From Flammeovirga pectinis (GTDB lineage: Bacteria > Bacteroidota > Bacteroidia > Cytophagales > Flammeovirgaceae), in assembly GCF_003970675.1 (NCBI RefSeq), contig NZ_CP034562.1, forward strand, positions 2,356,001 to 2,420,000: a stretch of DNA of 64,000 nucleotides. Direction: 5' to 3'. Every line of letters starts with the position of its first letter. Positions within the stretch are counted from its first letter, which is position 1. Shown piece by piece: positions 716 to 59,246 of this stretch. The translations under genes and the position numbers were made by a program. The notes beneath the pieces were generated by a model that saw only the letters and a list, made by a program, of their open reading frames with translations, made no database searches and was not told the origin of the DNA.

Positions 716-2125
716 CTACAATGTAGAAGGGCAAACAAATGCTGTTACATCTACACCTGCCTCTTTTATTGCTTTAAAACCACCTTTCACATCAATTATA
801 TGTTCAAAACCTCTTGATTTTAAAATTGAAGATGCAATCATAGATCGGTAACCACCTGCACAATGTATGTAATAAGTAGCCTCCTTGTCTAAATCATTCC
901 ACTCGTCGTTAATCACATCAAGTGGTTTGTTTACAACATTTTTACTATCGATGTGTTCCGAAGCAAATTCTGATGTTTTTCTAGCATCAATTACAGAAAT
1001 AGCTGACGTCAATCTATCTTTAAGTTCTTCTGCAGTAATAGATTCAATACTATCTACTTCTTTACCTGCAGCTGCCCAAGCAGTAATCCCTCCTTCTAAG
1101 AACCCTAAAGTATTATCATAACCAACTCTTGATAAACGAGTAATTACTTCTTCCTCTGCTCCTTCATCTGCGATAATTACTATAGGTTGCTTTAAGTCTA
1201 AAATTAGAGCACCAACCCAAGGAGCAAACCCTCCTTTAACACCAATATTAATAGAGTTTGGAATAAACCCATCTTTAAAAACTTGAGGAGAACGTGTATC
1301 TAACATTAATGCACCTTCCGCATTTACAACCTCTTCGAATAAAGCTGGACTTAACCCGACATTACCTCTCTCTAAAATTGAATCTATATTTTCGTAACCT
1401 TCCTTATTCATTTTTACATTCTGAGGGAAATATTGAGGAGGAGCTGTTAGTCCAGTTGTCACTTCCTTAATAAATTCGTCTCTCTTCATATCTGCTCTTA
1501 ATGCATAATTTGTTGCTTTCTGATTTCCTAAAGTATCTGACGTTTCTTTACTCATGTTTTTCCCACATGCAGAGCCTGCACCATGAGCAGGGTAAACAAT
1601 TACATCGTCTGCTAAAGACATTATCTTATTTCTTAAAGAATCAAATAATAACCCTGCAAGATCTTCTCTAGAAAGGTCTGATTTAACTGCCAAATCTGGT
1701 CTTCCCACATCACCAATAAATAAAGTATCTCCTGAGAATATGGCTACATCTTTCCCTTTTTCATCCGTTACTAAAAAAGTAGAAGACTCCGTAGTATGTC
1801 CTGGTGTATGTAATACTTTAATTTTGATATTTCCTATAGAGAATACCTCACCATCTTCAGCAATATGTGCTTCGTAAGTAGTTTGAGCAGTAGGACCAAA
1901 AACAATTGTAGCTCCTGTTTCTTCTGCTAAAGAAACATGACCTGACACAAAATCTGCATGGAAATGTGTTTCAAAAATATATTTGATTTTAGCACCTTCC
2001 TTTGCTGCTTTATCAAGATAAGGTTTAGTTTCTCTTAATGGATCTACAATTGCAGCTTCCCCATTAGATTCAATATAGTAAGCACCTTGTGCTAAACAAC
2101 CTGTATAAATTTGTTCAATTTTCAT
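716..2125 (-). CDS. Metallo-beta-lactamase-fold persulfide-dioxygenase-like enzyme with two rhodanese domains
   Basis: 469 residues. The N-terminal MBL fold (about 1-230) carries THFHADF (His54, His56, Asp58), TPGHT (His110) and SGDTLF (Asp133). His54, His110 and Asp133 fit the three ligands of the mononuclear iron of ETHE1-type persulfide dioxygenases, and the usual last His of HxHxDH is Phe, as I recall for this subfamily. Two rhodanese modules follow. The first (about 265-355) has Asp320 where the catalytic Cys should be, so it is probably inactive. The second (about 370-460) has HCAGGYRS with Cys422. The predicted role is oxidation or transfer of sulfane sulfur in the cytoplasm. It lies 45 bases downstream of the SulP transporter gene on the same strand, which supports a joint sulfur role. 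The exact substrate (glutathione persulfide or another thiol persulfide) is not shown. Confidence 0.85.
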   Translation of the reverse strand: MKIEQIYTGCLAQGAYYIESNGEAAIVDPLRETKPYLDKAAKEGAKIKYIFETHFHADFVSGHVSLAEETGATIVFGPTAQTTYEAHIAEDGEVFSIGNIKIKVLHTPGHTTESSTFLVTDEKGKDVAIFSGDTLFIGDVGRPDLAVKSDLSREDLAGLLFDSLRNKIMSLADDVIVYPAHGAGSACGKNMSKETSDTLGNQKATNYALRADMKRDEFIKEVTTGLTAPPQYFPQNVKMNKEGYENIDSILERGNVGLSPALFEEVVNAEGALMLDTRSPQVFKDGFIPNSINIGVKGGFAPWVGALILDLKQPIVIIADEGAEEEVITRLSRVGYDNTLGFLEGGITAWAAAGKEVDSIESITAEELKDRLTSAISVIDARKTSEFASEHIDSKNVVNKPLDVINDEWNDLDKEATYYIHCAGGYRSMIASSILKSRGFEHIIDVKGGFKAIKEAGVDVTAFVCPSTL

Positions 2126-2170: not shown

Positions 2171-3907
2171 TTATATGTTTCTTTCTTTAAATTCGTTGGA
2201 TTGAATCGCTCGCTCAAAGTTAATTTTTATTTCTTGATCATTTCCTTTCTGATCAAAGAAATCTATTGCAGACTGTACATCTAAGAAGAAATGGTCTTTT
2301 CCTAAATTTTTGATTAATCCTACTTTTGATAAGAAATCTCTTACAGGACCAATCATATCAGAAAAATAAGTCTTCACTCCTTGTTGTTTTAACTCTAAAA
2401 TCACATCTTCTAAACTTGCTAATGCCGTTGAATCTATATTTGATACACTTCCAAAATGCAAAACTAATAGTTTAAGTCCTTTCCCTTTTTGCTTTGCTTC
2501 ATCCATTACCCTATCATAGAAATAGGTGCTATTTGCAAAGTACAACTGAGCATCCTGACGAATTATTAATATATCATCACGTGCTTCTATATCCGTAAAT
2601 CGGTCTTTATTTCTATATTCATTACACCCTTCTAGTTTTTCTAGAACGGCAATATGTGGCGTTGCAGTTCTTCGTATCAACAGTATAATCGACAAAATCA
2701 TTCCTGAAATAATTCCAATCTGAATACCAACAAATAAAGTAAGGAGAAATGTAAAGGCAAGCATATAAAAATCTTCTCGCTTAGTTTTCCATAATAACTT
2801 TGGGTAATCAGTATCAATTAAACCATAAACTGCTACTAAAATTATAGATGCTATTATTGTTTTAGGAAGGAACTTAAAAATAGGCATCAAAAACAATAAA
2901 GCTAAGCCTAAAAGTAAACCACTAATTACATTTGCTAAATTAGTTTTTGCTCCTGCTTGGTTGTTTACTGCAGACCTACTAAAGCCACCTGTGCCATGGA
3001 ATCCACCAAATAATGAACTCACAACATCCCCTAAACCTAAAGCTATAAACTCTTGGTTGTTATCTATTTGGTATTCGCCTTTATGTTTATTCTGTAATGC
3101 TTTACTCACTGAAATAGACTCCATATATCCTATTAAAGAAATGGCAAGGGCAGATGGAAACATGGAAGTAATTAAACCAACGGATAAATCTGGAACTTTA
3201 AAAGAAGGCAACCCACTAGGTATTTCTCCAAGTATGGCAATATTAGGAGAGAAAAAATACACAAAAGCTAAACCCGTTATAACAGCTATTAAAGAGCCAG
3301 GTATTTTTGCACTTATCTTCTTTGTTAGCCTAATGAGGAGAATACCTACAATACCTAAAATTATAGCAATCCAATTAAAATAATTGTATTGTGTTATTGT
3401 CATCCATAAATTTTCTATTGTAGACCCTCCTTGCGCTATTGAAACACCAAATATATTTTTAAGCTGATCTATTCCAATCACAAAAGCTGCTGCAGAAGTA
3501 AAACCACTAATTACAGGTTTACTCATAAAGTTAACGAGAAAACCTAAACGGATAATACCAAATAACAATTGAAGTATACCTATTAAAAAGGTTAATGTTA
3601 ATGCTGCTGATACATAATTTTCTTCTCCAGAAGAAGCTATAGATGATACAGCTGCTGCAATTAACATAGAATCAATGGCTACAGGACCAACAGAAACTTG
3701 TCTTGAAGTACCCAATAAAGCATAGGTAAACTGAGGAATCATTGCTGCATATAAACCATACACAGCAGGCATACCTGCAACGCTTGCATATGCTATACCT
3801 TGGGGTATTAGCATTATCCCCACAGTTAAACCTGCAGATATATCGCTACCTAAATACTTTTTTTTATACTTGAAAAGCCAGGGTGTAATAAAACTCTTCT
3901 TTTGCAT
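2171..3907 (-). CDS. SulP-family anion transporter with C-terminal STAS domain
   Basis: 578 residues, a normal length for SulP/SLC26 permeases. About ten or more hydrophobic segments fill residues 20-430 and begin with the family-typical GLTVGIMLIPQGIAYA and SVGPVAIDSMLIAAA regions. A STAS domain follows (about 445-560), with LVLHFGSVSNIDSTALASLE. The protein sits in the inner membrane and carries sulfate, bicarbonate or another small anion; sequence alone cannot tell which. Because a persulfide dioxygenase/rhodanese gene follows 45 bases downstream, a sulfur oxyanion is a reasonable inference, for example export or exchange of sulfite or sulfate. The gene is preceded by an unusual leader containing a terminator (3980-4108). 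Confidence 0.9.
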   Translation of the reverse strand: MQKKSFITPWLFKYKKKYLGSDISAGLTVGIMLIPQGIAYASVAGMPAVYGLYAAMIPQFTYALLGTSRQVSVGPVAIDSMLIAAAVSSIASSGEENYVSAALTLTFLIGILQLLFGIIRLGFLVNFMSKPVISGFTSAAAFVIGIDQLKNIFGVSIAQGGSTIENLWMTITQYNYFNWIAIILGIVGILLIRLTKKISAKIPGSLIAVITGLAFVYFFSPNIAILGEIPSGLPSFKVPDLSVGLITSMFPSALAISLIGYMESISVSKALQNKHKGEYQIDNNQEFIALGLGDVVSSLFGGFHGTGGFSRSAVNNQAGAKTNLANVISGLLLGLALLFLMPIFKFLPKTIIASIILVAVYGLIDTDYPKLLWKTKREDFYMLAFTFLLTLFVGIQIGIISGMILSIILLIRRTATPHIAVLEKLEGCNEYRNKDRFTDIEARDDILIIRQDAQLYFANSTYFYDRVMDEAKQKGKGLKLLVLHFGSVSNIDSTALASLEDVILELKQQGVKTYFSDMIGPVRDFLSKVGLIKNLGKDHFFLDVQSAIDFFDQKGNDQEIKINFERAIQSNEFKERNI

Positions 3908-3979
3908 TTCTTGAAGTTATTCTAAATTATGCTGCAATTACATCAATTGATTTATAATACAATGTAACAATCATCACAT

Positions 3980-4015
3980 AAAAAAAAGACTACTCCTAAA
4001 TTTTTAAGAGTAGTC
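3980..4015 (-). terminator. Terminator hairpin in the leader of the SulP gene
   Basis: On the minus strand the arms at 4015-4008 and 3995-3988 (GACTACTC/GAGTAGTC) form an 8-bp stem followed directly by eight U. It lies 73 bases upstream of the SulP start, not after any minus-strand gene, so it either attenuates SulP transcription or ends a short leader RNA. Confidence 0.7.
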
Positions 4016-4100
4016 AATATCAAATAATAACTAAATACAATTTCTCTACTTTTCCAATCGCAATAATAATTTCTTTTATCAGATTCTAATTTCAACTTCA

Positions 4101-4108
4101 CAAATCTA
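4101..4108 (-). promoter_or_regulatory. Possible -7 promoter element for the SulP leader
   Basis: The minus strand reads TAGATTTG, an exact TAnnTTTG -7 element of the Bacteroidota housekeeping sigma factor. No TTTG -33 element stands about 20 bases upstream, so the call is tentative. It would start a transcript near 4094 that meets the leader terminator about 80 bases later. Confidence 0.35.
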
Positions 4109-4340
4109 ACTACTAGCCTGATTTTGTTTTAATCCATTCGATTGATAGCAAATAAATAAGGTTAAATGACTGTAAATAAGCCGCGAACTACATTAACTAG
4201 TCATATAACACTATGCAATAGTATAAAACTCACTGACAAAATTACAAATAGCCCCTTTTAAAGCTATTCGCTAGAAATATAGTGTTGTAAATTAATACTA
4301 TAGAAGAAGTATTGAGTATGTCAGTAAATTCCTTTTTTGA

Positions 4341-4369
4341 CAATTTGTCACCTTAATTATGACAAATTG
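4341..4369. promoter_or_regulatory. 10-bp inverted repeat with 9-bp spacer upstream of groES (possible operator)
   Basis: CAATTTGTCA (4341-4350) and TGACAAATTG (4360-4369) are perfect inverted copies separated by 9 bases. Arm length and spacer match the geometry of the CIRCE element bound by HrcA, but the arms do not match the CIRCE sequence TTAGCACTC. It lies 110-138 bases before the groES start and is a good candidate for a heat-shock operator or part of the promoter. Confidence 0.5.
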
Positions 4370-4416
4370 AGTGAGGATTAGAATTGGCACATTTCATGTT
4401 AAATATTCGTAGGTAA

Positions 4417-4478: not shown

Positions 4479-4757
4479 ATGTCACAAGTTAACATTAGAC
4501 CACTAGCAGACAGAGTTCTAATTGAGCCAGCAGCAGCAGAATCACAAACAGCTTCAGGATTATTTATTCCAGACAATGCGAAAGAAAAGCCTCAAAAAGG
4601 TAAAGTAGTAGCAATTGGAACAGGAACAAAAGATGAGCCGTTAACTGTAAAAGTTGGAGACACGGTAATTTATGGTAAATATTCTGGTACTGAACTTAAT
4701 GTTGATGGTACAGATTATTTAATGATGCGTGAGTCTGACATCCTAGCGATTGTCTAA
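4479..4757 (+). CDS. groES: Co-chaperonin GroES (10-kDa chaperonin)
   Basis: 92 residues, the usual GroES length. It starts [17 protein letters not shown], contains the mobile-loop region (about residues 17-33, [18 protein letters not shown]), and ends with the conserved [13 protein letters not shown] tail. Seven copies cap the GroEL chamber in the cytoplasm and assist ATP-dependent folding. groEL follows 62 bases downstream on the same strand, the normal bicistronic arrangement. Upstream lie two palindromic sites that may mediate heat control. No Shine-Dalgarno sequence is seen, and the leader before the ATG is A-rich, as is usual in this phylum. Confidence 0.98.
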
Positions 4758-14500: not shown

Positions 14501-14535
14501 AAGCCCTTGCTGTTAGTTACACAAGGGCTTTTTTT
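14501..14535. terminator. Terminator of pyrG
   Basis: AAGCCCTTG (14501-14509) pairs perfectly with CAAGGGCTT (14522-14530), with U-rich sequence on both sides. In context it ends pyrG on the minus strand. Confidence 0.85.
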
Positions 14536-19530: not shown

Positions 19531-19559
19531 AAAAAAGTCCAAGTTTTCACTTGGACTTT
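19531..19559 (-). terminator. Minus-strand terminator downstream of the DUF1349 gene
   Basis: AAAGTCCAAG (19534-19543) pairs with CTTGGACTTT (19550-19559) over a 6-base loop, followed by U-rich sequence on the minus strand. It lies about 210 bases after the stop of the DUF1349 gene, in otherwise featureless DNA. Confidence 0.75.
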
Positions 19560-35084: not shown

Positions 35085-35368
35085 ATCAGATTAATTTTCG
35101 ATAGTATAGTAATTCTCAAAATTACAAAAAATAAAATTTAAACCATGAAATCTTGAAATAATTAAACGAATTAACATATATTTTTAATTATTTACAAAAT
35201 TAATGAGTGTTCAAAATAAATTTCACATCACTTAATTACCAATAATATGTTAATTTGTTTGAGTATTGATTGCATAGCATGTAAATAAAAAGGATAATTG
35301 TAATGTAAAAGAGTAGTAGACTTTAAAGTGTATTTATTACCTTTACGTTAAATTACATTATAAGTAGC

Positions 35369-36424
35369 GTGACAAAAGATACAGAAAACACACAATCGCT
35401 TGATAATCAAGAAGAATTACCGAACATCTCTAAGATAGCTGTTATCGGAGGAGGTAGTTGGGCAACTGCATTGGTAAAAATATTATCCGATGGAGGTTCT
35501 TCTACTTTGCATTGGTGGATAAGAAATCAATCTGACATTGATCATATCAAGCAATATCATTCTAACCCACGATATCTTCCTTCTGCAAAAATATCAACAG
35601 ATAAGGTAATTCCCTTTAACAATATAAAAGATGCTATAAAAGGAGCGAATTGTATTCTTTTGGCTGTACCAGCCGCTTTCGTCTTAGATGCTATTAAAGA
35701 CCTCACCCCTGAAGATTTTAAAGATAAATACGTTATTTCTGCAATTAAAGGGTTAATCCCAGACCAACACATTCTTGTAACAGAGCACATTGAAAGAAAT
35801 TTTGGTGTACACCACAAGAAAGTTGCTGTTATTGGCGGACCCTGCCACGCTGAAGAGGTAGCAATGGAAAAGCAAGCGTACCTAACAATTGCTTCTGGAA
35901 GTAAACGTTTTGGAACTGCTCTAGCAGATGCTATGAGTAATAGATATATTAAAACATCCTCTATACGTGATATTTACGGAGTTGAGTATTCTGCAGTAAT
36001 GAAAAACATTGTAGCCATATCTTGTGGAATCGCACATGGATTAGGTTACGGAGATAATTTCCAAGCTGTATTAGTTTCTAATGCAATGCAAGAAGTACAA
36101 TACTTCTTAAAAGCTGCATATCATATTAAAAGAAACCTTCTAGGCACAGCATACCTAGGTGACATGTTGGTGACTTCTTATTCTCAATTTAGTAGAAATA
36201 GAACATTCGGCAACATGATCGGGCATGGTTATTCTGTAAAGGCCGCTCAATTAGAAATGCAAATGGTTGCTGAAGGTTACTATGCTGTTAAAAGCATTTT
36301 TGAAATTGCTAAAAGATTAAATATTGAAAACGACCTCCCTATTACAAGAGCCGTTTATAATATTTTATACGAACGCATTTCTCCAATCATAGAATTTAGA
36401 ATTCTTAAAGAGCAATTAAACTAA
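35369..36424 (+). CDS. gpsA: Glycerol-3-phosphate dehydrogenase [NAD(P)+]
   Basis: 351 residues from a GTG start. It is about 20 residues longer than usual because of a polar N-terminal extension (TKDTENTQSLDNQEELPN). The dinucleotide motif is IAVIGGGSWATAL (about 23-35), the typical GSWGTA having Ala for Gly. Later motifs are CILLAVPAAFV, VISAIKGLIPD, VIGGPCHAEEVA and YSAVMKNIVAISCGIAHGLGYGDN with the catalytic Lys. It supplies sn-glycerol-3-phosphate for phospholipid synthesis. The GTG start is the first in-frame candidate; a start nearer the Rossmann motif cannot be excluded. Own terminator at 36500. Confidence 0.93.
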   Translation: MTKDTENTQSLDNQEELPNISKIAVIGGGSWATALVKILSDGGSSTLHWWIRNQSDIDHIKQYHSNPRYLPSAKISTDKVIPFNNIKDAIKGANCILLAVPAAFVLDAIKDLTPEDFKDKYVISAIKGLIPDQHILVTEHIERNFGVHHKKVAVIGGPCHAEEVAMEKQAYLTIASGSKRFGTALADAMSNRYIKTSSIRDIYGVEYSAVMKNIVAISCGIAHGLGYGDNFQAVLVSNAMQEVQYFLKAAYHIKRNLLGTAYLGDMLVTSYSQFSRNRTFGNMIGHGYSVKAAQLEMQMVAEGYYAVKSIFEIAKRLNIENDLPITRAVYNILYERISPIIEFRILKEQLN

Positions 36425-58995: not shown

Positions 58996-59246
58996 TTATA
59001 TGCTAAGCTAAATATATCGATAGCACTATTTATATATACTTTAACGACTATATTTAAGTAATATTGAGTCATTGGTATTAGATTAATCAAATTACATACC
59101 AAGTATAAAAATCGACCTCTCTTTTTGTCATTTGATATTTATTAATTAGAAATCATATTTTGAAGTGTCATAAAAACAACAATATTTAAAAAATTAAATG
59201 TAATTTTAAGAGTAAAATCATTATTATCTAAAAAAGACGTTTTAAC

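Follow-up and report, generated by a model that had tools for sequence, protein, structure and literature searches.

An orphan terminator beside a SulP gene of Flammeovirga pectinis: probable end of a separate small RNA, next to a predicted Crp/Fnr-type sulfur operator

The intrinsic terminator that lies between groES and a SulP transporter gene in Flammeovirga pectinis most plausibly ends an independent non-coding RNA of about 115 nt on the minus strand and would not attenuate SulP, which is predicted to be transcribed from a separate promoter past the T-run; we put the probability of this reading at roughly 58%. A sequence-only reading of the locus had proposed an attenuator, a riboswitch or a stand-alone leader RNA. 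The first two are now disfavoured, and the stand-alone RNA fits best, as a separate transcript rather than as a leader. The window (the whole stretch of 64,000 nt that was analysed) was compared with a set of nine species genomes of Flammeovirga, in which G000 is the window genome and G003 a sister species, and with a wider family set of 18 genomes. The terminator, the dyad that follows it and its conservation, the spacing and the operator common to other genes are all read directly from the DNA.

The terminator is sited in the 571-nt gap between groES (plus strand, 4479) and SulP (minus strand, start at 3907). The genes around it, and the element before groES, are as follows.

716 to 2125, minus strand: metallo-beta-lactamase-fold / double rhodanese protein (PF00753, PF00581 twice)
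2171 to 3907, minus strand: SulP-family permease with STAS domain (TIGR00815, PF00916, PF01740)
4384 to 4399, plus strand: sigma-54-type -24/-12 element of groES, TTGGCACATTTCATGT, a pattern match kept in relatives
4479 to 4757, plus strand: groES (PF00166), divergent from the candidate RNA

The SulP gene scores 475.5 bits against TIGR00815 (cut-off 380.45). The gene at 716-2125 adjoins it on the same strand, 3' of SulP, and its product is probably a persulfide dioxygenase-sulfurtransferase, the NCBIfam Blh model matching it only far below cut-off. The sigma-54-type element before groES is the one match in the window, against 0.04 expected, and its TTGGCAC is present in all eight aligned Flammeovirga loci. 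Just upstream of it, at about 4340-4380 (plus strand), are TGTCA/TGACA inverted repeats that are possibly activator sites.

The terminator itself has two parts.

3988 to 4015, minus strand: intrinsic terminator stem-loop (12 bp, loop of four, -14.5 kcal/mol), identical in G003
3980 to 3987, minus strand: terminator T-run of eight T, the last of which abuts the SulP operator

The terminator at 4015-3980 (minus strand) is real, with a GC-containing stem and then a T-run. The sequence-only reading had described a hairpin of 8 bp, and the true stem of 12 bp is stronger than that description. The eight-T run at 3987-3980 and the distance of 73 nt from its end to the SulP ATG (3907) had been given correctly, as had the lack of a minus-strand gene upstream, which holds over a stretch exceeding 2 kb; the closest gene is groES (plus strand), 464 nt away. 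Fourteen of the 16 intergenic terminator-like hairpins in the window lie no more than 215 nt after a same-strand gene; the two exceptions are the 4015-3988 terminator and the plus-strand reading of a two-way hairpin at 14501-14530. No other strong terminator in the window lacks a same-strand gene behind it, and the orphan placement of the one at 4015-3980 is more than chance. Elsewhere, at 19535-19558 (minus strand), a strong terminator lies 215 nt past the previous same-strand gene, with a gene start 55 nt further on, and could belong to another leader or small RNA.

The transcript that we propose would be a short non-coding RNA running from a promoter near 4108-4101 to 3980, between the divergent groES and SulP.

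3980 to 4101, minus strand: candidate stand-alone RNA of about 115-120 nt, with a predicted 5' end and an unstructured body, conserved in G003
4101 to 4108, minus strand: TAGATTTG, which agrees with the -7 consensus TAnnTTTG and may be the promoter of the RNA; a chance-level motif, conserved in G003
4137 to 4194, minus strand: a further box, upstream of the RNA, conserved in G003 (identity at 56 of 58 nt, as read from the alignment)

The candidate has its own terminator and no same-strand gene upstream, and no open reading frame of the region is common to G000 and G003, leaving it without coding potential. A small protein was considered and rejected, the sole long frame having an in-frame stop in G003. 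No significant secondary structure was found in the RNA beyond the terminator (z = +1.05 for the fold of the body, with 169 of 200 shuffles as good). The promoter-like element that had been claimed at 4108-4101 is present as TAGATTTG, but it is weaker than claimed, its motif occurring at chance frequency: the window has 93 copies of TANNTTTG, where shuffled sequence leads one to expect 100.7. Since TANNTTTG is no commoner than in shuffles, the promoter element alone is no evidence. A TTG at -33, at normal spacing from TAGATTTG, was not found by eye.

Conservation has to be read with similar care. Between G000 and G003, positions 3988-4110 are identical at 121 of 123 nt; at 4-fold sites the same two genomes are 49% identical in SulP and 65% over all genes of the window. 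This identity lies in the top 5% of non-coding windows: of 2796 such overlapping windows of 123 nt, 135, its own counted, are conserved as well as this, and 5 of 19 intergenic regions hold a 123-nt window that matches it. Because the non-coding DNA of the pair is well conserved generally, the conservation of the RNA supports function without proving it, and the view that 98% identity is extraordinary was cut back after this calibration over the window against G003. Two long intergenic regions, 35085-35556 and 58996-59246, are about 96% identical to G003, a conservation matching that of the RNA region, and may hold control elements or RNAs of their own.

Over its full length the RNA finds a match in two of the 18 family genomes and in none of the 16 others. 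G002 and G006 have only short matches, inside long open reading frames, and the weak blastn matches elsewhere are short AT-rich stretches that we judged to be chance; in five of six such loci inspected, an open reading frame lies over the match or at it, L050 being the exception. Given that conservation is high yet not unique for this genome pair, and that TAGATTTG occurs at chance frequency, a stand-alone RNA of some 115 nt (4101 to 3980) is unproven, but it is the best reading of the region, at somewhat better than even odds. We infer the production of this RNA, its 5' end and any trans-acting role that it may have.

The conserved block begins sharply at about 4115, beside the -7-like box and past a diverged stretch that separates it from the box at 4137-4194, itself a possible control element or alternative promoter. 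This boundary bears on the suggestion that the terminator serves antisense transcription begun inside groESL. The minus strand upstream of the terminator is indeed antisense to groES, but a block that starts so abruptly by a -7-like box, after diverged sequence, argues against such an origin, which we consider very improbable.

A more serious rival, although in our view still an unlikely one, is that the terminator serves no functional RNA. It might be a relic, left from a lost secretion-tag (T9SS-type) gene of the kind sited between groES and SulP in relatives, or an insulator, kept only against stray transcription entering the SulP promoter. Five of the nine SulP loci have a hairpin and T-run directly against the operator, and in three of these genomes (G001, G002 and G007) it is a hairpin of similar strength that ends a gene of 1.4-1.6 thousand residues on the SulP strand, as the relic form would have it.

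L095, 1980 to 6755: large gene of this group
L096, 1958 to 6712: large gene of this group
L097, 118 to 4392: large gene of this group

Beyond the large gene lies groES in G001 and G007, the contig of G002 ending first, and the secretion-tag C-terminus is below cut-off in G002, the one copy scanned. The gene stands between groES and SulP in two genomes and upstream of SulP in a third, is absent in six, and appears to have been gained or lost repeatedly. However, when the 100 nt before the window's hairpin were compared with the 3' end of the large gene, as protein and as DNA, no significant similarity emerged, and these 100 nt are 98% conserved in the species pair from which the gene is missing; the stem sequences also differ. 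A coding relic was rejected on the same region, the best BLOSUM score being equalled by at least 55 of 500 shuffles.

The orphan form of the hairpin is confined to G000 and G003 among the nine genomes. In G004, G005, G006 and G008, where the gene upstream is groES, the operator has no comparable hairpin against it, the nearest candidate in the four being a hairpin of -8.1 kcal/mol in G008, about 80 nt before it. The hairpin is identical in G003; it is not kept generally before orthologous SulP genes, an abutting hairpin being absent at four of nine loci and belonging to another gene in three of the other five. In G008 (L010) the 500 nt before SulP are an intergenic region with many short repeated motifs, GGAACTAAGGAACTAAGG and TAACTAATAACTAATAG.

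The same loci weigh on the attenuator or riboswitch leader, in which transcription from TAGATTTG would be stopped or let through by a sulfur signal. The layout invites this reading, with a promoter-like box, 80 nt, a terminator and a gene, all kept in G003. Against it, a conserved operator and promoter belonging to SulP itself are predicted past the terminator in all nine genomes, and at four of nine SulP loci the operator has no abutting hairpin. A check of the leader against Rfam 15 gave no match at gathering score in the whole window, the sub-threshold matches being snoRNA and microRNA families far below cut-off, and the leader body shows no significant folding. The antiterminator that had been suggested exists in so far as AAAAGTAG (4053-4046) pairs at 7 of 8 positions with CTACTCTT (4013-4006), but it is too weak to compete: its duplex has -4.9 kcal/mol where the terminator has -14.5, and imposing the pairing on the fold gives -11.0 against -21.7. 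We therefore regard a switch of this kind as highly unlikely.

Transcription of SulP only through the terminator is likewise disfavoured, a conserved dyad and a -7-like box lying between the terminator and the ATG.

3963 to 3979, minus strand: Crp/Fnr-like dyad ATGTGATGATTGTTACA, predicted operator of SulP, in 9/9 genomes
3935 to 3942, minus strand: TGTAATTG, -7-like element of the SulP promoter, 4/6 consensus, 21 nt after the dyad

The dyad at 3979-3963, which is absent from the sequence-only reading, abuts the T-run. Only the dyad, TTATGTGANNNNTGTTACA, is common to the aligned SulP upstream regions of all nine genomes, its inner half-site ending 49-56 nt before the SulP ATG. Its core ATGTGAYNNNTGTTACA precedes SulP in all nine, with a -7-like box 21-22 nt on; in total the nine genomes hold 25 matches to ATGTGAYNNNTGTTACA, nine of them at SulP, against three for the reversed control. 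The SulP -7 box matches at 5/6 positions with a spacing of 22 nt in five genomes, at 4/6 with 21 nt in three (the window included), and at just 3/6 in G004. A simple pattern did not find the dyad before seven SulP homologues of other genera (L159-L165), where a YeeE-like or Crp-type gene is often directly upstream, nor before six of nine SulP paralogue loci of the genus (L011, L012 and L016-L019, with L013-L015 left out).

Because a conserved dyad and a -7-like box follow the T-run, a Crp/Fnr-type promoter past the terminator is the most likely origin of SulP transcripts. Its layout, with the dyad some 42 nt ahead of the presumed start, is that of class II Crp/Fnr-activated promoters. Under our preferred reading of a separate RNA, SulP and the following rhodanese gene would be transcribed from their own promoter, one that begins right after the T-run. 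An activator of Crp/Fnr type would bind the dyad at 3979-3963, in the class II position, and would there replace the -33 element; the terminator would also keep upstream transcription out of the SulP promoter.

The operator recurs at other sulfur genes (L119, L125, L134, L141, L142 and others carry ATGTGAYNNNTGTTACA with TANNTTTG). Requiring TANNTTTG 18-24 nt after ATGTGAYNNNTGTTACA gave 21 matches in the genus, 20 of them at exactly 22 nt, and the one with another spacing lies inside a long open reading frame. Counting dyad-only matches together with matches to dyad and -7 box, the operator precedes a CoA-disulfide-reductase-like gene (388.9 bits, below the NCBIfam cut-off of 578.8) in 9/9 genomes, with the dyad read in reverse in three of them; in 8/9 (not G000) it also stands before a single-domain rhodanese gene, and a looser site precedes nrfHA in G000 and G003. 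The rhodanese (Pfam) and NrfH (NCBIfam) assignments pass their cut-offs. Further operator matches stand at L116, L117, L129, L136, L148 and L150, of which L117 (= L151), inside a long open reading frame, is probably chance. The guess of a sulfur signal holds in part, in altered form: the operator past the terminator is common to other sulfur-handling genes.

As to what might bind there, G000 has six Crp-type proteins over the Pfam cut-off. One of 209 aa (G000:C1:2062725-2063351), present as one copy in 9/9 Flammeovirga genomes, is the best G000 match (38% and 44% identity) of Crp-type genes near SulP in G017 and G013; that of G017 is directly upstream of SulP, while that of G013 is clustered with YeeE-like genes (a name assigned by eye, from sequence), SulP and a rhodanese gene. 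In other genera of the family, Crp-type genes adjoin clusters of SulP, rhodanese and YeeE-like genes at these loci.

L166, 6575 to 7219: Crp-type gene
L168, 5815 to 6435: Crp-type gene
L157, 1054 to 1680: Crp-type gene

Their Flammeovirga relative lies elsewhere in the genome, not beside the cluster, and by the gene neighbourhood in G017 and G013 the 209-aa protein is a candidate for binding the SulP dyad. A fuller proposal, tentative and short of even odds, is that this Crp/Fnr protein is a sulfane-sulfur/sulfide sensor of Bacteroidota, activating SulP with the rhodanese-type dioxygenase, the CoA-disulfide/persulfide-reductase-like enzyme and the rhodanese through class II sites that keep a distance of exactly 22 nt to the -7 box, and that a two-species clade gained a small RNA beside the SulP operator, its terminator T-run shared with the operator edge.

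The consequence of these results is that a tempting riboswitch call is removed and replaced by a testable promoter map. The sulfur operator behind the terminator is the more useful result, with one motif tying SulP to other sulfur genes in the genus and a candidate regulator to go with it. The small RNA, if real, would give a phylum in which few are known a further, clade-specific one; neither it nor the operator would overturn known biology. Our literature search, outside which most subscription papers fell, returned a single, unrelated paper for Flammeovirga small RNA, and no title or abstract opening that it found names a Crp/Fnr sulfane-sulfur or persulfide-dioxygenase regulon in Bacteroidota.

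The promoter type proposed here is like class II Crp/Fnr promoters in that a dyad of TGTGA type stands in for the upstream box, some 42 nt ahead of the presumed start; it differs in its Bacteroidota -7 element TAnnTTTG and the fixed 22 nt. Work on Flavobacterium psychrophilum gives TAnnTTTG as the main -7 box and counts 45 independent non-antisense RNAs, with strong structure predicted for just 18 of the 45 (PMC9723704). Like those RNAs, our candidate is a short intergenic unit with a putative TAnnTTTG box and no coding potential; unlike them, it is predicted and found in two species, whereas they were seen in RNA data and some are genus-wide (PMC9723704). Sigma-54 control is described in two reports, for groESL in F. 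psychrophilum (PMC9723704) and for groES in Bacteroidota (PMC12316311), and groES here, with its upstream -24/-12 element, is as expected for the phylum. Finally, the BigR-controlled yeeE-yedE-pdo2 operon and the FisR persulfide systems of Acinetobacter, as outlined in PMC7315123, likewise place persulfide-handling genes under a dedicated regulator, here a candidate one; BigR is a repressor and FisR a sigma-54 activator, whereas the predicted operator of SulP is of Crp/Fnr type.
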